From: an uncultured Bermanella sp.
GTDB lineage: Bacteria; Pseudomonadota; Gammaproteobacteria; Pseudomonadales; Oceanobacteraceae
Length of the DNA: 37,621 nucleotides
Direction of reading: 5' to 3'
NCBI GenBank assembly: GCA_913058575.1
Contig: CAJXRF010000056.1
Span: 1-37,621 of the forward strand
The notes beneath the pieces were generated by a model that saw only the letters and a program-made list of their open reading frames with translations, did not search any database and was not told where the DNA came from. Positions 10,244 through 24,298 of this stretch are shown piece by piece (the stretch's first letter is position 1; the number at the start of each line of letters is the position of its first letter). A program made the translations under genes and the position numbers.

Positions 10244-10687
10244 TTAACCTCTGCCTAATACTTTACGAATTTCTTGTAAGGTTCTTAACTGAGCAATGGC
10301 TTGAGCAAGTTGGCCCACGGCTCGGGCATAATCCATATCTCGTGTGGGGTGAGTCATAAGTTCCTCTGCATGGCGCTTCGCTTCTAGCGCAGCGGCTTCA
10401 TCTATCTCGGTGCCTCGTAACGCTTGCTCAGCCAATACTGTCACTGAGCCAGGTACCACTTCTACAAAGCCACCCGATACATAATAAATAACTTCACTTT
10501 GAACAGGATCATCTAATGTTTCACAACAAAGGCGCACGACACCTGGCCTTAGTTTGGTGATGAGGGGACTGTGACCTGCATAAATACCCAGCTCGCCCAG
10601 CGCACCGGGCACTACAATACTTTTAACTTTCCCTGAATAAAACTGCTGTTCAGCAGTGACAATGTCACATTGAAATAGATGAGCCAT
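10244..10687 (-). CDS. atpC: Orphan second ATP synthase epsilon subunit
   Basis: This 147-residue protein is a full-length F1 epsilon subunit. It has an N-terminal beta-sandwich (CDIVTAEQQFYSGKV, GELGIYAGHSPLITKLRPG, YYVSGGFVEVVPGSVTVLAEQA). The C-terminal two-helix part reads [16 protein letters not shown] and YARAVGQLAQAIAQLRTLQEIRK. By eye about half of its residues match the operon copy at 23870-24298, with a four-residue insertion near residue 60. It stands alone, 13 kb from the atp operon, same strand, with no beta-subunit gene beside it. A TATAAT on the minus strand (10775-10770) could give it its own promoter. The ORF is intact, so it is unlikely to be a dead duplicate. Whether it is incorporated into ATP synthase is unknown. 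Confidence 0.9.
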   Translation of the reverse strand: MAHLFQCDIVTAEQQFYSGKVKSIVVPGALGELGIYAGHSPLITKLRPGVVRLCCETLDDPVQSEVIYYVSGGFVEVVPGSVTVLAEQALRGTEIDEAAALEAKRHAEELMTHPTRDMDYARAVGQLAQAIAQLRTLQEIRKVLGRG

Positions 10688-10857: not shown

Positions 10858-11610
10858 TTGCCCAAAGTGCTAAAGCAACTAACATTCGCCCTCACGCTCA
10901 TAATTCTGAGCCAATTTAGCCATGGTGCTGAGACTAAAATGGTCCGCGTGCTTTCTTATTACGAGATAGTGCCTTTTAAAATCACTGACACACAGGGACT
11001 ATCCTTTGATTTAGTCGCACAACTTAATGCCGCCAGCCCGCCTTCTTTACAGTTTACTCTGCAACACTTGCCACGAAATAGAATCAATAACGCCTTAACA
11101 TCTGATGAAGGGCTGATTGTATTATTGGTCAACCCCGCTTGGTTTGGTGATAAAGAAAAAACGCGTTATTTTTGGAGTGAAAGTTTATTTCAAGATGGAA
11201 ACGATGTGGTTTCACTGATCACTAGCCCCATTAGCTACACAGGAATAGAGTCACTTAAAGGTAAAAAAATGGGGGCATTGCTGGGAAGAAAATATGGCTT
11301 AATAGACAAAGCAGTGGAGGACGGTGACATCATTCGTGAAGACGTAAATGACCTAGGTAGAAATTTACGCAAGCTCAATGCAGGTTACATAGACTTTACA
11401 ATCTTAAGCAGAACGTGGTCAGCTTACCTGATTAATAGCCAGTTTCTGCACAGTAAATTTAAGCGCTCGCCTTTTAAAGACTTTACTCGCCACCTACTTA
11501 TAAGCCATAGCTTAAAACCCCATGTGAAATTTATAACCGACTGGGTTAATTCTTTAAATCACAGTGAGCAGTGGCAATTGACCCTCAAAAAGTACGGTAT
11601 AAAGCAGTAA
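10858..11610 (+). CDS. Exported substrate-binding protein, SBP_bac_3-like
   Basis: The 250-residue protein begins at a TTG, which is needed to include the signal peptide (MPKVLKQLTFALTLIILSQFSHG-A). The mature part is a two-lobed periplasmic binding domain: VRVLSYYEIVPFKI, GLSFDLVAQLN, LPRNRINNAL, NPAWFGDKEKTRYFWSES, SLKGKKMGALLGRKYGL. It is clearly paralogous to the C-terminal domain of the chemoreceptor encoded convergently at 11631-13490, sharing LPRNR, PAW-GD, SxKGKxMGxLxG and the spacing between them. No ABC permease is nearby, so it may be a periplasmic sensor partner rather than a transport component. The ligand is not predictable. The start codon is the main uncertainty. Confidence 0.75.
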   Translation: MPKVLKQLTFALTLIILSQFSHGAETKMVRVLSYYEIVPFKITDTQGLSFDLVAQLNAASPPSLQFTLQHLPRNRINNALTSDEGLIVLLVNPAWFGDKEKTRYFWSESLFQDGNDVVSLITSPISYTGIESLKGKKMGALLGRKYGLIDKAVEDGDIIREDVNDLGRNLRKLNAGYIDFTILSRTWSAYLINSQFLHSKFKRSPFKDFTRHLLISHSLKPHVKFITDWVNSLNHSEQWQLTLKKYGIKQ

Positions 11611-11630: not shown

Positions 11631-13490
11631 TTATCTATATTTAGCCAGCCTATTCAGCCAGTCTTTATCCTGCATCATGTTTTTAGTGACACTAGATAGC
11701 TTATTATTTAAGGCATCTCCATTGGCGATGCTCATCATCTGATAATTAAACTCTTGGTGGTGCTTAGTAGAGAAGTGTATTTTATCCTTTAAATTAAGCT
11801 CACTAACCAGGTAGCGAGCAGTGGACTCTGTCACGAGCGCCGTATCAATTCGATTGGTGGTTAAGCGGGTAATGTTTTCTCTTATATTACTCACATCAAC
11901 TCGTTTAAATTCGCCTTTTTGAGCCAAATCATCTAACCCCAAATAAAAATAACCAATCAACCCTCCCATGGTTTTGCCCTTCATGGAGTCTGGGCCATTG
12001 TATTCAAAGGGTTGAGACGCAGGAGAAATAATGCAGTTTGAATCACTGGTGTAACCAGGCGTCCATTTATATTTAGTTTCATCAGGATCCCCGTGCCAGG
12101 CAGGAGACGTCCAAGGAACCAGCCCCTTAGCGTTTTTATCCACTAAACGGTCCGCCCTGTTTCTGGGCAAACGAAACACCACAAATTTATAATCACCCTT
12201 TAGTTTCTCATTTAAATATTCAGCCAAATCATAGGTTAAGCCCTTGCCAGAACCCACAATAAAAGGCGGCATATTCTGATAGCTGTAAATTCTAATGGTG
12301 CGCTCACTTACTTCGCTGTTATTTAAATTCAGCATGGCGCGCATGTAATCCACCATAAGCGTTTGCTCTTGAGCCGCCGCGGCACTTTCCTCTGAATGCT
12401 GGGCCGAGTCATCAATCATCTGAGTTAAGTTTTTAAGCCCTTGGTGAATACTTTGTGTTGAACTGCTTTGTGCCTCTACCGCACCAGCTGTTTGAATACT
12501 CATGTCGGTAATGGTCGATACTGCGTGGGTAATTTGCCCTAAAGACTCGCGGCCTTTTAAAGCACGCTCGGCGCTTTCATCTGCTTTGGTTTTACCATTG
12601 ATGATAGACGTTACTGCATGCTGACTGCCTTCTTGTAACTGGCTAATCATCTTTTGAATATCTTTGGTGGCATCGGCGGTACGGCGGGATAAATCCCGAA
12701 CTTCATCAGCCACCACGGCAAAGCCTCGGCCTAAATCGCCAGCCCGAGCCGCTTCAATGGCGGCATTCAAAGCCAGTAAATTGGTTTGATCGGATATATC
12801 ACTTATCACACTGACAATAGAGCCAATATGCTCACTTTGCTTGGCCAAGTCTTCAATCACAGGGGCGGCTTTATTCACATCTTCAGCCAATTCATTAATG
12901 GAGTTAATCACTCCTTCAATGACTGACTGGCCTTCCTGTGCATCGTCTCCTGCTTGCTTGGCAGCATCGGCAGCAGCATTACTATTGTCGGCCACTTCGC
13001 GCACTGCCGATGAAATGTTTTCAGTGGTTAACGCCACCGAATTAGATTCATCGTATTGCTTAATAATGCCCGCGCTGGTTTTTTCAGCCACAAGTGTGGC
13101 TCGGCTGGAATTTTCGGAAAGTTGTTGCGCAGCATCATTTACTTCATCAATGACGGCCAATAAACGCTGAATCAATTTGGCTAAATTACCCCGTAAAGAG
13201 CCATCATTAGCGCTGGATTGATCCTTAACAAAATTTCGCAAGTCACCATCAAACTGGCCATCATCATTGGCAAGCTTGTGAAGTATTTCAGGAAAGCCAT
13301 GGGAGGCTGGAAATTTTACATATTTCAGCAGAGTGTAAAAAATGCCAAACAAAATAAAGCCACTTAATAGAGAGGCTCCTAAGCTGCCCGTAAAAGCATC
13401 AGAGGCAGCTTTATCGCTGGCTAACACTGTAATTAAAAGCTGAATAAAGGTAGAAACTAGCGCAAAACCCACACTCAATTTTATTTTCAT
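11631..13490 (-). CDS. Methyl-accepting chemotaxis protein with C-terminal substrate-binding domain
   Basis: This 619-residue receptor has two membrane helices (about residues 6-24 and 35-57) joined by a loop of about ten residues, so it has essentially no periplasmic sensor. The signalling domain follows, with its hairpin tip around residues 228-275 ([39 protein letters not shown]). From about residue 397 to the end a complete SBP_bac_3-like domain appears ([62 protein letters not shown]). No membrane helix separates the two, so the binding domain should be cytoplasmic. It is tail-to-tail with an exported paralogue of that domain, 20 bases apart. The ATG is preceded by only a weak ribosome site. 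Confidence 0.9.
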
Positions 13491-13750: not shown

Positions 13751-14182
13751 CTATAGGCAAGCACGATTAAAATTATCAATTCCCGCTTGAGCACAGCCAA
13801 GATCTTGCTCAGGAGATCCTGAACTGACACCTATGCCACCCACCACTTCACCATTAAAGCTCACAGGTAAGCCACCACCTACAATACACATACGACCACC
13901 CAATGCTGTATGAATACCAAAAAGGTTGTTCTCATGGCCAGGTATGCAGGCCTTGTTGTACTCATGGGTACCTTTACGGGCCGAAGCGGCGGTAAACGCC
14001 TTATCTTGAGAAATAGTAATACTGTGAATCTTACCGCCATCCATACGTTCAAACGCAATCAACGCACCCGATTCATCGGTCACGGCAATACACATGGGCA
14101 CGCCAATTTCATTGGCACGCGCCACAGCGCCATCAATTAACAATTTCGCTTCTGTTTGGCTGAGCCTATTAATAGTTAACAT
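13751..14182 (-). CDS. GlcG/HbpS-family heme-binding-like protein
   Basis: The 143-residue protein belongs to the GlcG/HbpS (DUF336) family: AVARANEIGVPMCIAVTDESGALIAFERMDG, SQDKAFTAASARKGT, IVGGGLPVSFNGEVVGGIGVSSGSPEQDLGCAQAGI. GlcG is encoded in the glycolate oxidase operon of E. coli, and some family members bind heme or corrinoids; the biochemical role of this subgroup is not settled. It sits next to bhcR and the beta-hydroxyaspartate cycle genes, so a role in glycolate or glyoxylate use is a reasonable inference. TAGGAGT eight bases before the ATG is a strong ribosome site. Confidence 0.85.
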   Translation of the reverse strand: MLTINRLSQTEAKLLIDGAVARANEIGVPMCIAVTDESGALIAFERMDGGKIHSITISQDKAFTAASARKGTHEYNKACIPGHENNLFGIHTALGGRMCIVGGGLPVSFNGEVVGGIGVSSGSPEQDLGCAQAGIDNFNRACL

Positions 14183-14556: not shown

Positions 14557-15333
14557 TCACGAACCTGTGTACCCCAGTTCAGCTGATAGCTCATTGCCTG
14601 CTGCCACTAAATCTTGAATCCACTCATCTTTACGACGCTCAATAGGCGCTGAAATAGATAAACCTGCCACTATTCCGCCGGTTCTGTCATATAAAAGTAC
14701 CCCTATACAACCCACATCCATCTCGGCTTCTTCATTATCTAGGGCATATCCTTGCTCAACACACTTCATACATTCCTCTGTTAGGGCGTCTAAAGTGGAG
14801 AAGGTTTTACGAGTATATGCAGGTAGGTTGGTGCGCTGCTCATAACCTTTAATGCCTTCAATGCCCCCCATACCCAGCATTAATTTACCCACACCAGTCA
14901 CATGTAAGGGCGCACGAGAACCGATAATTTGCTGCACATGCATCATTCTATTAGGAATCGCTTTCTCCAAATAAATGATCACATCTCCCTCACGAGTCGT
15001 AAGGTTGATGGTTTCGCCTAATTTATCACGCAGCTTTTCCATATAAGGCATGGCCACTTTGCGTAAATCTATGTCTGTGTATTGGCGATTACTTAATCGT
15101 AACAAACGCCCATTTAGCTGGTATTCGCCAGATGGGTCACGCTCCACAAAACGGTTATCTATTAATGAATGCAGAATTCGATAAGCCGTAGAAGGGGCTA
15201 GGTTAGTGTCTGCACTTAAGGCTTTGAGCTTAACCGGCTTGGAATAGCGCGACATGGCATCAAGCAACATGGCAGCTCGGTCAATCACCTGAATCCGCGA
15301 TTCGGGTTTGGATTTGAGAGTTGATTTATTCAT
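14557..15333 (-). CDS. bhcR: IclR-family regulator of the beta-hydroxyaspartate cycle
   Basis: The 258-residue protein has the IclR layout. An N-terminal winged helix covers about residues 15-80 (IDRAAMLLDAMSRYSKPVKLKALSADTNLAPSTAYRILHSLIDNRFVERDPSGEYQL). A linker helix and a C-terminal effector domain follow (INLTTREGDVIIYLEKA, RAPLHVTGVGKLMLG, EAEMDVGCIGVLLYDRTGGIVAGLSISAP). It is divergent from bhcABCD with a 302-base gap containing inverted repeats. This is the arrangement of BhcR in Paracoccus denitrificans, where the protein binds the bhc promoter and responds to glyoxylate. The assignment rests on this context plus the family. Confidence 0.88.
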   Translation of the reverse strand: MNKSTLKSKPESRIQVIDRAAMLLDAMSRYSKPVKLKALSADTNLAPSTAYRILHSLIDNRFVERDPSGEYQLNGRLLRLSNRQYTDIDLRKVAMPYMEKLRDKLGETINLTTREGDVIIYLEKAIPNRMMHVQQIIGSRAPLHVTGVGKLMLGMGGIEGIKGYEQRTNLPAYTRKTFSTLDALTEECMKCVEQGYALDNEEAEMDVGCIGVLLYDRTGGIVAGLSISAPIERRKDEWIQDLVAAGNELSAELGYTGS

Positions 15334-15417
15334 ATGGTTGACCGCTAAAGGTTAGAACCTGTTGGGAATATAAAACTTAAACTACTAAAAAACCACATAA
15401 TGAGAAATTCATATCCA

Positions 15418-15432
15418 TCCCACATTGTGGAA
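15418..15432. promoter_or_regulatory. Candidate BhcR site in the bhcR-bhcA gap
   Basis: TCCCACATTGTGGAA contains the near-perfect dyad CCACA-T-TGTGG (15420-15430). It lies 85 bases upstream of bhcR and upstream of a possible bhcA promoter (TATACT at 15464-15469). The shape and size fit IclR-type operators, but the assignment is inference. Confidence 0.45.
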
Positions 15433-15518
15433 CTTATAAATCCTGACTAAACAGTCAAGAAAATATACTATACAAAACAATTACTTACGAAGAAAAAAAA
15501 CAATAAACGCCATTAGTT

Positions 15519-15575
15519 TTCACAATATGAAATATATCCGTATTGCGGCAAGCCATTTTTACTCATATTGTGAAT
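15519..15575. promoter_or_regulatory. Paired inverted 12-mers upstream of bhcA
   Basis: TTCACAATATGA (15519-15530) and its exact reverse complement TCATATTGTGAA (15563-15574) are 44 bases apart start to start, four helical turns. The first copy is itself a partial dyad (TTCA-N5-TGAA). The pair ends about 60 bases before the bhcA start, as expected for operator sites of the divergent IclR regulator. Confidence 0.55.
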
Positions 15576-15635
15576 TCAGTCTTTAACCAATAACAACAAT
15601 TTTTAAATTACAGGCGCCTCGCCAAGAAGGTAATT

Positions 15636-16817
15636 ATGTCCAATCAGAATCCAGTATTTATTCCAGGGCCAACTAATATTCCAGATCGCTTGCTTAATGC
15701 TATGCATCAGCAAACCATGGATCACCGCTCTCCAAGCTTTGTTGAAATGTTAAAGCCAGTACTAAGCGACTGTAAGCGTGTTTTTGGTACCGAAACTGGC
15801 GAAGTCATTATTTTTCCATCTACTGGTACTGGCGGTTGGGAAGCCACTATTTGTAATACCTTATCTCCAGGCGACAAAGTACTTATCGCTCGCTACGGCA
15901 TGTTCTCTCATCGTTGGATCGACTTGTGTCAGCGCCACGGTCTAGATGTACAAATCATCGAATGCCCATGGGGTAGCGGTGCACCAAGCGACAAATTTGA
16001 AGAAGTATTAAGCCAAGATACCAACCACGAAATTAAAGCGGTTTTGGCCACTCATAATGAAACTGCTACTGGTGTTAAGAGCGACATTAAAGGCGTTCGT
16101 GGCGCCATGGATACAGCTAAGCACCCAGCTATGTTGTTTGTTGACTGCGTAAGCTCATTGGGTTCTATGCCATTTGATATGGATGCATGGGGTGTTGATG
16201 CGGCAATTTCTGGTTCACAAAAAGGCTTCATGCTAACCACTGGTTTGGCCATTTTAGCCGTTAGCCAAAAAGCCTTGGCTGCCATGGAAACCGCTAAGTT
16301 GCCACGCACCTTCTTTGACTTTAAAGACATGATGGCCGCCAACAACAGCGGCGGCTTCCCATATACACCGCCTCTACAATTGATTTACGGCTTACGTGAA
16401 AGTTTGGCCATGTTGTTAGAAGAAGGGTTAGACAATGTTTTCGATCGTCATCACCGCATGGCTGAAGGCGTTCGCCAAGCTGTTGCCGCTTGGGGTTTGA
16501 AGTTGTGTGCCAATTCTCCTGACTTGTACTCAGACAGCGTAAGCGCCATTTACGTGCCTGAAGGCTTCGACAGTAACCAGCTTACTGCCCATGCATTTGA
16601 TACCTACGGTGTGTCTTTTGGCATTGGTTTAGGGGAAATGAACACCAAAGCGTTCCGTATTGGTCACTTGGGTTCATTAACTGACGTAATGGTTCTTTCT
16701 GGATTGGCTACAATTGAAATGGCCATGGCAGATTTGAACTACCCAATTACCTTGGGAACAGGCGTTGCAGCGGCGCAAGAGTACTTCCGTAAAACAGCAC
16801 CTAAGAAAAGCGTTTAG
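15636..16817 (+). CDS. bhcA: Aspartate-glyoxylate aminotransferase
   Basis: This 393-residue fold-type I PLP enzyme of the serine-glyoxylate aminotransferase group starts MSNQNPVFIPGPTNIPDRLL. It contains STGTGGWEA for cofactor phosphate contacts, ATHNETATGV, the PLP aspartate in LFVDCVSS (about D170) and the Schiff-base lysine in SGSQKGFML (about K196). In the beta-hydroxyaspartate cycle BhcA moves the amino group of aspartate to glyoxylate, giving glycine and oxaloacetate. The specific name is by position as first gene of bhcABCD after a divergent IclR gene. AGAAGG precedes the ATG. A hairpin separates it from bhcB. Confidence 0.93.
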   Translation: MSNQNPVFIPGPTNIPDRLLNAMHQQTMDHRSPSFVEMLKPVLSDCKRVFGTETGEVIIFPSTGTGGWEATICNTLSPGDKVLIARYGMFSHRWIDLCQRHGLDVQIIECPWGSGAPSDKFEEVLSQDTNHEIKAVLATHNETATGVKSDIKGVRGAMDTAKHPAMLFVDCVSSLGSMPFDMDAWGVDAAISGSQKGFMLTTGLAILAVSQKALAAMETAKLPRTFFDFKDMMAANNSGGFPYTPPLQLIYGLRESLAMLLEEGLDNVFDRHHRMAEGVRQAVAAWGLKLCANSPDLYSDSVSAIYVPEGFDSNQLTAHAFDTYGVSFGIGLGEMNTKAFRIGHLGSLTDVMVLSGLATIEMAMADLNYPITLGTGVAAAQEYFRKTAPKKSV

Positions 16818-16846
16818 TCGGCACGACTCTAAATTAGCTTTTCAAC

Positions 16847-16875
16847 GTGACTTTAGAGCAGGTCTTTAAAGTCAC
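16847..16875 (+). repeat. Intercistronic hairpin between bhcA and bhcB
   Basis: GTGACTTTA (16847-16855) pairs with TAAAGTCAC (16867-16875), nine base pairs with an eleven-base loop and no T-run. It lies in the 110-base gap and is more likely an mRNA stability or processing element than a terminator. Confidence 0.55.
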
Positions 16876-16927
16876 CCATAAGAAAGCATTTAGTGGGCAC
16901 AGCCACCAATAATTTTGTGAGGTAAAC

Positions 16928-17905
16928 ATGAGCAGCTCCAACGAACCGACTATGACCATTCCTACATACAAAGATGTAGAAATCGCCCATGAACGCATCA
17001 AACCCTACATTCATGAAACGCCGGTTTTAACCTCACGTTTCCTAAATGAGTTAACGGGTGCTGAGCTGTTCTTTAAATGTGAAAACCTACAGAAAGCCGC
17101 TGCCTTTAAAGTGCGCGGTGCTTGTAACGCAGTTTTTGGCCTAAGTGAAGAGAAAGCCAAAATTGGTGTGGCCACTCACTCATCTGGTAACCACGCCCTA
17201 TCTTTGTCTTATGCAGCAGGCCAGCGCGGCATTCCGGTAACGGTGGTGATGCCACGCACTGCACCTCAAGCTAAGAAAGACGCGGTAATTGGTTACGGCG
17301 GTAAGATCATTGAATGCGAGCCATCCACTAGCTCTCGTGAAGCAGTATTTGCTGACGTAGTGGCAGAGTCAGGCGCTGACTTTGTACACCCATACAATGA
17401 CCCTCGTGTTATTGCAGGCCAAGCCACTTGCTCTAAAGAATTGGTTAGCCAAGTAGAAAATCTAGACATCGTAATCGCCCCTATTGGCGGCGGCGGTATG
17501 ATTTCAGGCACTTGCCTAACTTTGTCTAACATCGCACCAGACGTGAAAATTTACGCAGCTGAACCATTAAATGCTGATGATGCCGCGCGATCTTTAAAAG
17601 CCGGACACATTATCGCTGATGACGCTCCGAACACAGTAGCCGATGGTCTTAAAGTGCCACTAAAAGATTTAACTTGGCACTTTGTTAAAAACCACGTAAC
17701 CGACATTTTAACCGCAACCGAAGATGAAATTGTTGACGCAATGAAATTGATTTGGAAGCGCATGAAAATTGTAGTGGAGCCTAGCAGTGCCGTTCCACTG
17801 GCCACCATATTGAAAAACCCTGAAGTGTTTAAAGGTAAGCGTGTTGGCGTGATCATCACCGGAGGCAACGTCGATTTAGACAAGCTTCCGTGGATGAATA
17901 AGTAA
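16928..17905 (+). CDS. bhcB: Beta-hydroxyaspartate dehydratase
   Basis: The 325-residue protein is a fold-type II PLP enzyme of the serine/threonine dehydratase and racemase group. The Schiff-base lysine is in KAAAFKVRGA (about K61). SSGNHALSLSYAAG follows as the substrate loop, then IGGGGMISGT as the phosphate-binding glycine loop. In the cycle it removes water from (2R,3S)-beta-hydroxyaspartate to give iminosuccinate. Outside this context a threo-3-hydroxyaspartate dehydratase or serine racemase label would fit equally, so the neighbours decide. GAGG sits before the ATG; it is 110 bases behind bhcA and 57 bases ahead of bhcC. Confidence 0.92.
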   Translation: MSSSNEPTMTIPTYKDVEIAHERIKPYIHETPVLTSRFLNELTGAELFFKCENLQKAAAFKVRGACNAVFGLSEEKAKIGVATHSSGNHALSLSYAAGQRGIPVTVVMPRTAPQAKKDAVIGYGGKIIECEPSTSSREAVFADVVAESGADFVHPYNDPRVIAGQATCSKELVSQVENLDIVIAPIGGGGMISGTCLTLSNIAPDVKIYAAEPLNADDAARSLKAGHIIADDAPNTVADGLKVPLKDLTWHFVKNHVTDILTATEDEIVDAMKLIWKRMKIVVEPSSAVPLATILKNPEVFKGKRVGVIITGGNVDLDKLPWMNK

Positions 17906-17962
17906 ACCTAATTAGAAGTATTAAAAGCAATTAAAAAACATTTATAAATTTGGAGATACAAG

Positions 17963-19111
17963 ATGACAAATTACAACGACCTAGAAGTAGGCTACGACGT
18001 TCCAGCAGTACCGGGTATGAACGAAGCCGATATCCAAACTCCATGTTTGGTTGTGGACCTAGACGCCCTTGAGCGCAACATCGTTAAGATGGGCAACTAC
18101 GCCAAAGAAATGGGTGTTCGTCACCGTATTCACGGCAAAATGCACAAGTCAGTAGACATTGCTTTGCTTCAAGAAAAACTAGGCGACAGCTGTGGTGTTT
18201 GCTGTCAGAAAGTTTCTGAAGCCGAAGTATTTGCACGTGGCGGCATTAAAGACGTATTGGTTTCTAACCAAGTTCGTGACCCAGCTAAAATTGACCGTCT
18301 AGCACGCTTGCCAAAGCTTGGCGCACGCACCATCGTTTGTGTTGATGATATTGCCAACGTCGCTGAACTAGCCGCTGCCGTTAAAAAGCACGACACACAA
18401 ATCGAATGTCTTGTTGAGATTGATTGTGGTGCTGGTCGTTGTGGCGTTCAAGAAGGTCAGCCAGTTGTTGATATTGCGAAAGCCATTGAAGCCACTGCTG
18501 GTTTAACGTTCTCTGGTATTCAAGCTTATCAAGGCGCCATGCAACACATGGAAAGCTATGCAGGGCGTAAAGAAAAAACTGACATTGCCATTGGCATGGT
18601 TGCTCGCACAATTGAAATGCTTAAAGCCGAAGGCCTTGAGTGTAACATCGTAGGCGGCGGTGGTACTGGTTCTTACTACTTTGAAGGTGCTTCTGGTGTG
18701 TTTAATGAATTGCAGTGTGGTTCTTACGCGTTCATGGATGCCGATTACCAGCGCATTCACGATGAAAACGGTAAAAAGATTTCTGAATTCGAAAACTCTT
18801 TATTCATTTTGACTTCAGTAATGAGCCACACAAAAGCAGACAAAGCCATTTGTGATGCGGGTCTTAAAGCACAATCTGTTGATTCAGGTCTTCCATACAT
18901 CTTTGGCCGTGATGACGTTGAATACATCAAGTGTTCAGATGAGCACGGTGTGATCACAGACCCAACTGGCGCATTAAAAGTTAACGAAAAATTGAAATTG
19001 GTTCCTGGTCACTGTGATCCAACTTGTAACGTACACGATTACTACGTTGGTGTTCGTAACGGAAAAGTTGAAACTCTATGGCCTGTATCTGCACGTGGTA
19101 AAGCGTACTAA
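17963..19111 (+). CDS. bhcC: Beta-hydroxyaspartate aldolase (D-threonine aldolase-like)
   Basis: The 382-residue enzyme has the alanine racemase-like barrel of D-threonine aldolases. It opens with DIQTPCLVVDLDALERNIVKM, carries the PLP lysine in HGKMHKS (about K59) and a glycine-rich phosphate loop VGGGGTGSY, and ends with the divalent-metal site LVPGHCDPTCNVHDYYVG. In the cycle it joins glycine and glyoxylate to beta-hydroxyaspartate, the carbon-carbon bond-forming step. A strong GGAG ribosome site precedes the ATG. A very stable hairpin lies between this gene and bhcD. Confidence 0.93.
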   Translation: MTNYNDLEVGYDVPAVPGMNEADIQTPCLVVDLDALERNIVKMGNYAKEMGVRHRIHGKMHKSVDIALLQEKLGDSCGVCCQKVSEAEVFARGGIKDVLVSNQVRDPAKIDRLARLPKLGARTIVCVDDIANVAELAAAVKKHDTQIECLVEIDCGAGRCGVQEGQPVVDIAKAIEATAGLTFSGIQAYQGAMQHMESYAGRKEKTDIAIGMVARTIEMLKAEGLECNIVGGGGTGSYYFEGASGVFNELQCGSYAFMDADYQRIHDENGKKISEFENSLFILTSVMSHTKADKAICDAGLKAQSVDSGLPYIFGRDDVEYIKCSDEHGVITDPTGALKVNEKLKLVPGHCDPTCNVHDYYVGVRNGKVETLWPVSARGKAY

Positions 19112-19123
19112 TTAGCAGCCATG

Positions 19124-19152
19124 TAGTTCTCTCGGTATTGCCGAGAGAACTA
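19124..19152 (+). repeat. Strong intercistronic hairpin between bhcC and bhcD
   Basis: TAGTTCTCTCGG (19124-19135) pairs perfectly with CCGAGAGAACTA (19141-19152) around a five-base loop. No T-run follows, so readthrough into bhcD, 36 bases on, is expected. It may protect or process the mRNA and set a different level for BhcD. Confidence 0.7.
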
Positions 19153-19187
19153 TTCCAAATTCATAGCCATTTCGTAAGAGAGTTATT

Positions 19188-20180
19188 ATGAGTGAAGCGA
19201 ATCAAGATAAAGGCATAGCGCTAGTATCTGAAGCTGTATGTGAACAAGTAGTTGGCCGCAGCGAAGCATTTACCGCAGTTGAAAATGTATTTGCCGCCAT
19301 GGCAAAAGGCACCGCCTACAACTTCCCAGTTGTACGTGAAGCCATTGGTCACGCCGACGCGTTATACGGTTTTAAATCAGGTTTCGACCGTGATGGCATG
19401 GTGCTAGGTTTAAAATCTGGCGGTTACTGGCCTGGCAACATGGATAAAGGTTTAACCAACCATCAGTCTACGGTAATTTTATTTGACCCAGATACCGGCA
19501 AGTTAAAGTCTTTAGTCGGCGGTAACTACTTAACAGCGGTCCGTACTGCGGCATCATCAGCAGTATCCATAGCACACCTTGCTCGTATAGATGCCAAAGT
19601 ATTAGGCATGGTTGGCGCAGGTCATCAATCTACTTTCCAATTGCGTGCTGCAGTTGAGCAACGTGATTTTGAAAAAGTCGTGGCTTGGAATTTCCACCCT
19701 GACATGCTGCCTAAATTGGCTGCGGTTGCTGAGGAATTAGGCTTGCCTTTTGAATCGGTTACCCGTGAAGAACTAGGCGCACAAGCTGACGTGATTATTA
19801 CCATTACTTCAGCTTTTGAATCTTTAGTTAAAAAAGATTGGATTAAACCAGGTACACACATTGCGTGCATGGGAACCGACACAAAAGGCAAGCAAGAAGT
19901 AGATGCGGACCTTTTAGCGGTTGCCACTGTCTTTACTGACGAAGTAGCACAATCTATTTCTATTGGTGAAGCACAACATGCTGTAGCGTCTGGCTTAATT
20001 AAAGTTGAAGACATTACTCCTGTGGGCGCTGTGATTAATGGCACACATCCTGGGCGTACTTCTGACGACGAGATTACCTTGTTTGACGGTACTGGTGTTG
20101 GCCTTCAAGATTTAGCGGTAGCGTCTGTGGCTGCTGATCTGGCTGAAGAAAAAGGCCTTGCCAACTTCATTAACTTTTAA
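19188..20180 (+). CDS. bhcD: Iminosuccinate reductase (ornithine cyclodeaminase-like)
   Basis: The 330-residue protein belongs to the ornithine cyclodeaminase/mu-crystallin family. The N-terminal part carries the substrate-site lysine and arginine regions (FKSGFDRDGMVLGLKSGGYWPGN, AVRTAASSAVSIAHLARIDAK). A Rossmann dinucleotide motif VGAGHQSTFQLRA follows, with DVIITITSAFESL and CMGTDTKGKQEVDADLL. In the cycle it reduces iminosuccinate to aspartate with NADH, regenerating the amino donor used by BhcA. It closes the bhcABCD operon and is followed by a hairpin and then by a decarboxylase-like gene. Confidence 0.93.
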   Translation: MSEANQDKGIALVSEAVCEQVVGRSEAFTAVENVFAAMAKGTAYNFPVVREAIGHADALYGFKSGFDRDGMVLGLKSGGYWPGNMDKGLTNHQSTVILFDPDTGKLKSLVGGNYLTAVRTAASSAVSIAHLARIDAKVLGMVGAGHQSTFQLRAAVEQRDFEKVVAWNFHPDMLPKLAAVAEELGLPFESVTREELGAQADVIITITSAFESLVKKDWIKPGTHIACMGTDTKGKQEVDADLLAVATVFTDEVAQSISIGEAQHAVASGLIKVEDITPVGAVINGTHPGRTSDDEITLFDGTGVGLQDLAVASVAADLAEEKGLANFINF

Positions 20181-20516: not shown

Positions 20517-21380
20517 ATGAACAAAATCCCAAGACAACGCATGAGAGAACTTTTAGAAAGCCAACAATGTTTCACCTGCGCCTCTGTATTTGATCCGTTA
20601 TCTGCGCGCATGGCAGAAAGTATTGGTTTCAAAGTGGGGATTCTAGGGGGCTCAGTGGCAGCACTCATGACCCAAGGCGCGCCAGATATTGGTTTACTAA
20701 CATTAAGCGAATTAGCTGCACAAGCTAAAAGAGTATGTGGTGCTTCGGATTTACCTGTGATCGTAGATGGCGACGGCGGTTACGGAAATGCGCTAAATGT
20801 TATGAAAACCATTGAAGAATTAGAATACGCAGGAGCCTCCATGGTCACTCTTGAAGACACCATTTTGCCACGCCGCCATAAAGAAGCACCATTAAGTTTA
20901 ATTTCCATTGGCGAAGCCAAAAACAAATTAAAAGCCGCTCTTAGGGCTCGTTCTGATAATAGCTTTGCCATATTTGCTCGTACTCATGCGTTACCTAGCC
21001 AGTCCCTTGATGAATTATTAACCCGTGTTAAAAGTTACAGCGATGTGGGCGTAGATGGCATTACTATTTTTGGGTTAAGCGATAAAGACAAATTAGCACT
21101 TATTTCCGCCACAACTCACCTACCTATTATGGTCATCAGTTATGGGGACGTAGACTTAGGCACACCCAATGAACTGGCTATGCAAAAAGTACGTTTTCGC
21201 TTAGGGGGCCACCAAGCTTATGAAGAAGCGGTGCGAGCTACTTATAACTCTATGCTGAAACTGCATGATGCTCGAAATTTTGTTCAAAGTAATGACAGTG
21301 GCAAGGATATTATTCAACGCTATTCAGATAGTGATAAATATAATGACTTAACTAATGAGTTTATTTTTCCAGTTTCATAA
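20517..21380 (+). CDS. PEP mutase/isocitrate lyase superfamily protein, probable oxaloacetate decarboxylase
   Basis: The 287-residue protein is a single TIM barrel of the PEP mutase/isocitrate lyase superfamily. The N-terminus (CASVFDPLSARMAESIGFKVGILGGSVAAL) and a late GGHQAY motif closely follow the biotin-independent oxaloacetate decarboxylase group typified by Pseudomonas PA4872, also 287 residues as I recall. The metal-site strand reads VDGDGGYGNALNV, where PA4872 has ADHGYGN; the substitution at the histidine is worth noting. It would convert oxaloacetate to pyruvate and CO2, drawing on the product of the bhc genes just upstream. Alternative labels are methylisocitrate lyase-like or carboxyphosphonoenolpyruvate mutase-like. 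AGGT eight bases before the ATG supports the start. Confidence 0.75.
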   Translation: MNKIPRQRMRELLESQQCFTCASVFDPLSARMAESIGFKVGILGGSVAALMTQGAPDIGLLTLSELAAQAKRVCGASDLPVIVDGDGGYGNALNVMKTIEELEYAGASMVTLEDTILPRRHKEAPLSLISIGEAKNKLKAALRARSDNSFAIFARTHALPSQSLDELLTRVKSYSDVGVDGITIFGLSDKDKLALISATTHLPIMVISYGDVDLGTPNELAMQKVRFRLGGHQAYEEAVRATYNSMLKLHDARNFVQSNDSGKDIIQRYSDSDKYNDLTNEFIFPVS

Positions 21381-23869: not shown

Positions 23870-24298
23870 TTAACTCATACCCATTTTTTTGCGGATCTGC
23901 TGCAACGTGCGAAGTTGCGCAGTAGCTTCCGCCAGCTGAGATGCTGCACGAGAATAATCAAACTCACCGCTTTGATTTTCAAGTGCTTGTTCAGCGTGTT
24001 TTTGCGCTTCAAGCGCAGCTGCTTCGTCAATGTTGCCAGCACGTAACGCAGTATCTGCCAAAACAGTTACTGAGTTAGGCTGTACTTCAATGAAGCCGCC
24101 AGACACGTAGAACACTTCCTCTTCGCCGTTCTGTTTTACAATTCGAACGGGGCCAGGTTGAAGAGCAGTTACCAATGCAGCGTGACCAGGCATAACACCT
24201 AGATCACCACCCACACCAGCAGCTACTACTACTTCAACCAAGCCGGAGAAGATAGCTTCTTCAGCGCTAACGATATCGCAGTGAACCGTCATTGCCAT
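23870..24298 (-). CDS. atpC: ATP synthase epsilon subunit (operon copy)
   Basis: The 142-residue protein is the last gene of the atp operon, 14 bases after atpD. It has the beta-sandwich ([60 protein letters not shown]) and the regulatory helical hairpin ([37 protein letters not shown]). It is part of the central rotor stalk and moderates ATPase activity. A second, diverged copy is at 10244-10687. Confidence 0.97.

Follow-up and report, generated by a model that had tools for sequence, protein, structure and literature searches.

A predicted β-hydroxyaspartate cycle operon in a gammaproteobacterium, with a variant IclR-family regulator and a probable link to purine breakdown

The DNA analyzed here (the window) is a 37,621-nt contig of an uncultured Bermanella sp. 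It is the entire contig C56 of its own genome (G000; 5.72 Mb, 99.7% complete). ORF analysis found five intact open reading frames (ORFs) within 14557-20180, one on the minus strand followed by four on the plus strand, which are predicted to form a complete enzyme set of the β-hydroxyaspartate cycle (BHAC) behind a divergent IclR gene. Descriptions of the BHAC treat it chiefly as a route for glycolate, and the cycle has found use in plant and bacterial engineering. We propose, with a probability of roughly 60%, that the window carries a complete BHAC of the gammaproteobacterial (gamma) type, probably acquired horizontally, under candidate control by the IclR protein through an operator and most likely fed by purines. 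The genes are as follows.

14557..15333, minus strand: IclR-family regulator of gamma type, divergent from the bhc operon; HTH_IclR and IclR_C domains; not NCBIfam BhcR
15636..16817, plus strand: bhcA, L-aspartate-glyoxylate aminotransferase; NCBIfam 720 bits, cut-off 650
16928..17905, plus strand: bhcB, β-hydroxyaspartate dehydratase; NCBIfam 603 bits, cut-off 550
17963..19111, plus strand: bhcC, 3-hydroxy-D-aspartate aldolase; NCBIfam 722 bits, cut-off 690; 6qkb 627 bits
19188..20180, plus strand: bhcD, iminosuccinate reductase; NCBIfam 586 bits, cut-off 500; 6rqa 416 bits

Each of the four enzymes exceeds the cut-off of its own NCBIfam equivalog. The next-best families score 169 bits for BhcA, 363 for BhcB and 203 for BhcD, with none for BhcC. 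The best solved relatives of BhcC and BhcD are a D-3-hydroxyaspartate aldolase (6qkb) and an iminosuccinate reductase (6rqa). An earlier note on this DNA had proposed a complete BHAC in a gammaproteobacterium beside the ATP synthase operon, in the order divergent IclR gene, aminotransferase, dehydratase, aldolase and reductase. Both the enzyme set and the order are borne out, and neither family scores, solved relatives nor the bhcBCD tree below grouped the proteins with ordinary dehydratases, aldolases and cyclodeaminases. Comparison of MnmG places the genome in the gammaproteobacteria, nearest among ten named BHAC genomes to Marinomonas (76%) and to Amphritea and Marinobacterium (75%).

By analogy with the known cycle, BhcA would convert glyoxylate to glycine with aspartate as amino donor, leaving oxaloacetate. 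BhcC would join this glycine to a second glyoxylate to give β-hydroxyaspartate, which BhcB would dehydrate to iminosuccinate and BhcD would reduce to aspartate, which would reenter the cycle at BhcA. In net terms, two glyoxylate would become oxaloacetate without CO2 loss, and the enzyme encoded at 20517-21380 may pass part of the oxaloacetate on to pyruvate. As effector, the IclR protein would recognize glyoxylate or a related 2-oxoacid, and its binding site would be a TTTCAY-N3-RTGAAA operator before bhcA. Glyoxylate would be supplied by purine breakdown, from urate through allantoate and ureidoglycolate to glyoxylate and urea.

We compared the window with 80 BHAC loci, the best 80 among the matches listed and a set biased to close relatives. 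The combination of bhcABCD with a divergent IclR gene is found in the window and 44 of these relatives; 11 have bhcABCD with no IclR gene recognized there, and 21 have bhcBCD with no bhcA within the stretch examined. Compared with gamma BHAC loci, the window is 82-91% identical in BhcB and 78-93% in BhcC. The bhcBCD concatenate tree (22 gamma loci and 30 of 54 other loci having all three genes) places the window inside the gamma group with Shimodaira-Hasegawa approximate likelihood ratio test (SH-aLRT) support of 92 (inner sets, 96-99). The BhcA tree places it nearest to Amphritea, and the gamma BhcA rows do not form one clade. Both trees contain BHAC relatives only, with no outgroup families.

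The regulator had been named bhcR in the earlier note, an assignment that is not supported here. The protein scores 147.3 bits against BhcR (NF045644; cut-off 350), which is still its best NCBIfam match. In a tree of 49 IclR proteins, made by a quick method without bootstrap, the window and 23 gamma bhc loci form one clade (SH-aLRT 100), within which the window regulator is 59-82% identical to the others. The 22 regulators from alphaproteobacterial and other (alpha/other) loci, being the first 22 such loci with an IclR match, group with E. coli IclR and AllR, apart from the gamma clade; E. coli KdgR lies beside the gamma clade, on long branches. The part of PMC11323563 covered here lists nine ligand positions, five of them binding oxygens of glyoxylate or pyruvate. 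In our alignment, E. coli IclR and AllR show their published letters at these nine positions, and 9 of the 22 alpha/other proteins match published BhcR exactly. The window protein reads M V A G V D V S S, which keeps four of the five oxygen-binding positions (G160, D212, S239 and S241; 161 is V) and differs from published BhcR at the hydrophobic ones. Position 160 is A in 3 of the 24 gamma proteins. We file the window as a putative BHAC with a variant regulator of a gamma-specific clade.

Between the regulator gene and bhcA lie three operator-like sites, none assigned to a strand.

15418..15432: weaker operator-like site TCCCACATTGTGGAA; position weight matrix score 13.6; 100 bp before the main site, a spacing as in relatives
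15518..15532: main candidate operator TTTCACAATATGAAA; bhcA start codon 118 bp further on
15561..15575: degenerate third operator-like site; 3 mismatches; 43 bp after the main site

A palindrome resembling TTTCAY-N3-RTGAAA occurs in all 24 gamma iclR-bhc spacers, with at least 12 of 15 letters the same as in the window site. The motif search used 14 of the 23 gamma loci, and scoring covered the 23 and the window; the best 18-mer averaged 15.4 of 18 matches over the 14 loci, compared to a maximum of 12.4 in 60 shuffled controls. Three copies of at least 16 bits, spaced 101-103 and 43 bp, are present in 11 of the 23 relatives. The window triple (15418, 15518 and 15561) is spaced 100 and 43 bp, with only 15518 strong; the sequence of the site at 15561 is by itself within chance, and only its spacing agrees with the relatives. 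An operator precedes the first bhc gene in 23/23 gamma loci; because the matrix was trained on these spacers, we sought an independent test in the alpha/other loci (n = 56, 987 kb). There, 19 loci contain 21 sites of at least 16 bits, every one of which precedes the called bhcA start by 6-160 bp. Since these loci have the operator too, it seems older than the split between the gamma and alpha/other regulators. A possible palindromic BhcR site before bhcA in Paracoccus denitrificans has already been proposed (PMC11323563, in the part covered here).

We then considered how the operon relates to its surroundings. The atp, mnmG, parAB and glmUS genes of the window are 74-96% identical to congener proteins, with gene order kept. 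The contig is therefore native and the bhc operon does not lie on a foreign stray contig, an explanation that we rejected. For three congeners (L206, L207 and L208), the entire interval was read: one or two genes separate atpC from trmB, glmU and glmS, and none of them is a bhc gene; one of those in L207 is 32% similar to window orf21636. A fourth congener stretch (L209) ends at atpC. The corresponding interval of the window holds orf22619, orf21636, a PA4872-like gene, bhcDCBA, iclR, hbpS, a methyl-accepting chemotaxis protein (MCP) gene, orf10858 and a second, divergent atpC. The placement between atpC and glmU in the earlier note was close (atpC on one side, trmB-glmU-glmS on the other), with the added detail that atpC is present twice, one copy on either side of the operon.

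10244..10687, minus strand: second, divergent atpC; trmB-side island edge
23870..24298, minus strand: native atpC; other island edge; 80-89% to four congeners

The simplest reading of this arrangement is that the bhc operon is an insertion into a variable interval of native DNA. BhcC is over cut-off in one of 44 family genomes examined and BhcB in one of nine genus genomes, in both cases the window's own genome. Because of this narrow occurrence, together with the three congener intervals without bhc genes, the operon was probably acquired horizontally. The two atpC genes are 52% identical to each other; congeners G001 and G006 have one atpC match each and G007 has two. The second atpC shares 50-55% identity with the main atpC in members of the genus and 45-51% with its counterpart in five other genomes. 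Neither comparison names a donor, and we rejected this gene as a mark of one.

The link to purines comes chiefly from the gamma relatives. Of 72 sites of at least 16 bits in the gamma loci, 56 lie within the bhc spacer; the 16 outside it are spread over 9 of the 23 loci. In five loci (L021, L023, L025, L026 and L028), the operator lies 169-208 bp before a permease gene, and the two of these permease genes that were checked match Pfam Xan_ur_permease. Two of these loci, L021 and L025, also have it 17-18 bp ahead of an hpt-like gene (the Thalassotalea copy is Pfam Pribosyltran). In L023 it lies 133 bp before a SulP-like gene (by eye), and in L024 between an HbpS-like gene and a pyruvate-kinase-like one (the latter by eye). 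The remaining off-spacer sites are directly behind a class V aminotransferase gene (L017, L020, L023, L028 and L034). Sites outside the bhc locus were read as ten hand-picked from the listed matches plus those in stretches already read. Among them, Colwellia 75C3 has one 285 bp ahead of an xdhA-like gene, and Thalassotalea has one 310 bp ahead of a second Xan_ur_permease gene and another 102 bp ahead of a ytoQ gene; ytoQ-like genes stand immediately after bhcD in L023 and L027 (by eye). The other off-locus sites read in the same genomes either fall within genes or have neighbors with no obvious part in purine metabolism. Ureidoglycolate lyase is present in 24 of 27 genomes. Taking contigs of equal size as one contig, 12 of 18 gamma BHAC genomes (G000 excluded) have it no more than 25 kb from bhcC. 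The six misses are G010, G014, G016, G058 and G061, where it is on other contigs, and G015, which has no match. Within the stretches examined, purine genes occur in 5/24 gamma and 14/56 alpha/other loci (19/80).

Turning to the window's own genome, contig C28 carries in one row guanine deaminase, hydroxyisourate hydrolase, OHCU decarboxylase, allantoicase and ureidoglycolate lyase, all over NCBIfam cut-offs, as well as a PuuD-like gene (by eye, with no NCBIfam match); the row ends at the contig end. Congeners G001, G006 and G004 have the same row, preceded by xdhA-, xdhB- and xdhC-like genes (xdhC-like by eye), with no operator site of at least 14 bits at the row. From the relatives, we infer that purine breakdown, the better supported of the two sources examined, and not glycolate, is most likely the glyoxylate source in the window bacterium. 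Purines are named as one general glyoxylate source in the part of PMC11323563 covered here. Apart from this paper, the open-access literature yielded, among the matches listed, no paper joining the BHAC with allantoin, purine, urate or ureidoglycolate, and we found none combining it with xanthine dehydrogenase (the coverage excludes the 2019 Nature BHAC paper).

Separately, twelve alphaproteobacterial bhc loci (L040, L045, L050, L059, L061, L065, L071, L073, L079, L086, L087 and L088) adjoin at least two purine-degradation genes, drawn from ureidoglycolate lyase, PuuE-type allantoinase, hydroxyisourate hydrolase and a PuuD-like gene.

Several observations weigh against the purine-fed, horizontally acquired BHAC proposed above. 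In its own genome, the bhc operon and the purine cluster sit on different contigs. No operator of at least 14 bits was found in the 11.8 kb of C28 read, but the cluster promoter lies beyond the contig end, so that this does not count as a negative result. Neither allantoinase nor xanthine dehydrogenase turned up in the genome, no search having been aimed at them. The congeners have the purine cluster and malate synthase G but no BHAC, and the BHAC is therefore not required for purine use. Among the BHAC loci, 61/80 show no purine gene within the stretch examined, and ureidoglycolate lyase is within 25 kb of bhcC in 0/3 alpha genomes placed. A control at the MnmG locus gave purine neighbors in 0/10, but with stretches of 4.9 kb that are not comparable with the 21-kb loci; the purine linkage is thus without a matched control. 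Operator-pattern totals per genome are mostly near the reversed-pattern control (pattern/reversed: G000 11/7, G001 8/8, G006 9/5, G004 11/8, G009 22/19, G013 11/7, G011 16/18, G010 13/14 and G012 7/1), so that only the clustering of sites is informative. We set aside operator control of other G000 genes: its 11 sites compare with 7 reversed, and the two loci given for it (L247 and L256) have the site inside called ORFs. As for the horizontal origin, absence of bhc from 43 family genomes could also reflect loss.

One alternative is an ordinary BHAC fed by glycolate, as in P. denitrificans, through a glycolate oxidase that went unrecognized here. PMC11323563, in the part covered, describes the BHAC as the dominant glycolate route in Alpha- and Gammaproteobacteria. 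None of the 22 BHAC genomes, the window's included, reaches the TIGR00387 cut-off of 568 bits, and we therefore compared GlcD-like proteins by bits. Such proteins score 442-561 bits in 10 of 21 other BHAC genomes, Amphritea, Motiliproteus, Marinobacterium and Colwellia ponticola among them; glycolate is for this reason a likely source in those ten, a further point against our proposal. The best GlcD-like protein of the window's own genome, at 307 bits, is below both the cut-off and this range. Against GlcD-like proteins from the other BHAC genomes it reaches at most 32% identity, its gene lies between a serA-like gene (by eye) and ilvA, and 7 of 8 congeners, none of which showed a BHAC, have a counterpart at 305-318 bits. 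No GlcD-like protein above 141 bits was found in Marinomonas, both Shewanella, Thalassotalea and 7 of 8 Colwellia. Within the stretches examined, a GlcD homologue occurs in 0/80 BHAC loci, whereas purine genes occur in the 19 counted above. We consider the glycolate-fed alternative unlikely. Of the growth on glycolate predicted by the earlier note, weak support is left, in the form of this 307-bit protein common to most congeners; other glycolate-oxidizing enzymes were not searched for.

The operon might instead be a general module for glyoxylate assimilation or detoxification, drawing on several sources such as glyoxylate shunt overflow, glycine or sarcosine oxidation, purines and glycolate. 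The gene set by itself names no source, the four conserved oxygen-binding positions (as far as the covered part of PMC11323563 defines them) fit a small 2-oxoacid effector, and malate synthase G is present too (1102 bits, over cut-off). The operator sites of relatives, on the other hand, concentrate on purine permease, hpt-like, xdhA-like and ytoQ genes, and we regard this alternative as doubtful. A glycerate pathway via Gcl was rejected, with 0/27 genomes over cut-off (G000, 317 bits vs 711). We consider it improbable that the operon makes aspartate from glycine and glyoxylate without cycling. The sister clade described below seems able to do so, with bhcBCD and no BhcA over cut-off in 11/11 tested Colwellia, Shewanella and Thalassotalea genomes, but the window bhcA is intact, over cut-off and the first gene of its operon.

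The bhcBCD tree groups the window as sister (support 99) of a set of 16 rows from Colwellia, Thalassotalea and Shewanella (97); Marinomonas branches next. BhcA is over cut-off in 3 of 16 genomes examined, those of the window, Marinomonas and Amphritea; the best score in the 11 Colwellia, Thalassotalea and Shewanella genomes is 215 bits, and no BhcA over cut-off was found in the Solemya symbiont or DT_73. All 11 bhcA-less genomes have a class V aminotransferase, 81-100% identical to the Thalassotalea copy, within 16 kb of bhcC. Among solved structures, it most resembles an alanine-glyoxylate aminotransferase (1vjo, 351 bits), and the window genome encodes a homologue (59%) on a different contig. 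This AGXT-type aminotransferase could supply glycine instead of BhcA in the sister clade.

Loci with bhcBCD and no bhcA in the stretch examined come from Colwellia, Shewanella, Thalassotalea and the Solemya velum symbiont (L015-L021, L023, L025, L026, L028, L029, L031-L034 and L053); 12 of these genomes were searched whole, none with BhcA over cut-off. In the Nitrincolaceae metagenome-assembled genome DT_73, a lone BhcC-like gene (79%) lies at 10001-11140 of L056, with no bhcA, bhcB or bhcD in the stretch examined.

A single account could join these results, and we hold it tentatively, at somewhat short of an even chance. The marine gamma BHAC would be the carbon-assimilating end of a purine-degradation regulon with its own IclR protein and TTTCAY-N3-RTGAAA operator. 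Colwellia, Shewanella and Thalassotalea would have dropped bhcA, leaving a route from glycine and glyoxylate to aspartate with glycine from the AGXT-type aminotransferase of the same locus. The window would be the nearest full-cycle relative found, moved from a purine locus into the variable atpC-trmB interval of a family otherwise without the BHAC.

Compared to the P. denitrificans BHAC, the window has the same four enzyme families in the same order, a divergent IclR gene and, likewise, a palindrome proposed before bhcA (PMC11323563, in the part covered here). It differs in that its regulator belongs to another IclR clade (mean identity to alpha/other regulators 28% for the helix-turn-helix portion and 26% for the effector portion), in the added HbpS-like and PA4872-like genes, in having no GlcD of the usual score and in the purine linkage of its relatives. 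The BHAC in Gammaproteobacteria has already been published (same part of PMC11323563). With the marine gamma loci of Marinomonas, Amphritea, Motiliproteus, Marinobacterium, Colwellia, Shewanella and Thalassotalea, the window shares the regulator clade, the operator and, in many of them, HbpS or PA4872-like neighbors; unlike them, it is sister to a bhcA-less clade yet keeps bhcA, and its operon is outside a purine locus. The allantoin-inducible pathway PA1498-PA1502 of Pseudomonas aeruginosa (PMC12694930, in the part covered here) is similarly dedicated to glyoxylate from purines and allantoin but yields pyruvate, whereas the window set would yield oxaloacetate.

If the BHAC mainly recovers purine carbon in many marine bacteria, surveys that read bhc genes as glycolate use would mislead, nucleobase use in the sea would end in carbon assimilation, and engineers could draw on a shorter module in the naturally occurring bhcA-less form. 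Through the operator and the different regulator, both the purine-fed and the opened-cycle ideas are directly testable.

Two further genes flank the regulator and operon.

13751..14182, minus strand: HbpS-like protein beside the regulator; PF03928
20517..21380, plus strand: ICL/PEPM-superfamily enzyme, probably a PA4872-type oxaloacetate decarboxylase; 336 bp after bhcD; 3b8i 215 bits

The closest solved relative of the predicted 20517-21380 protein, whose gene adjoins bhcD, is the PA4872 oxaloacetate decarboxylase (3b8i; 215 bits vs 108 for the next). The KRCGH stretch of methylisocitrate lyase, with its catalytic Cys, aligns to RRHKE, so the lyase Cys is absent; isocitrate and methylisocitrate lyase were rejected by scores. 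The protein is probably a PA4872-type oxaloacetate decarboxylase, and converting oxaloacetate to pyruvate would be a fitting outlet during growth on C2 units. Homologues of 53-59% lie just after bhcD in Amphritea (L024), the L030 bin and Marinobacterium (L080). The HbpS-like gene stands beside the regulator in 16 of 23 gamma bhc loci (76-88% identity). HbpS-like genes of two kinds recur by gamma bhc operons (window 13751-14182, L024 16149-16601 and L080 13691-14122), and the L024 gene has an operator site 205 bp upstream.

The neighboring chemoreceptor-like protein (11631-13490, minus strand) has an MCP signaling domain at 174-358, followed by a C-terminal stretch that resembles the product of orf10858 (10858-11610, plus strand; 32% over 135 aa, E 2.5e-22). 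The orf10858 product appears secreted (by eye); the binding-protein-like domain of the chemoreceptor, behind its signaling domain, would be cytoplasmic by apparent topology, an odd arrangement.

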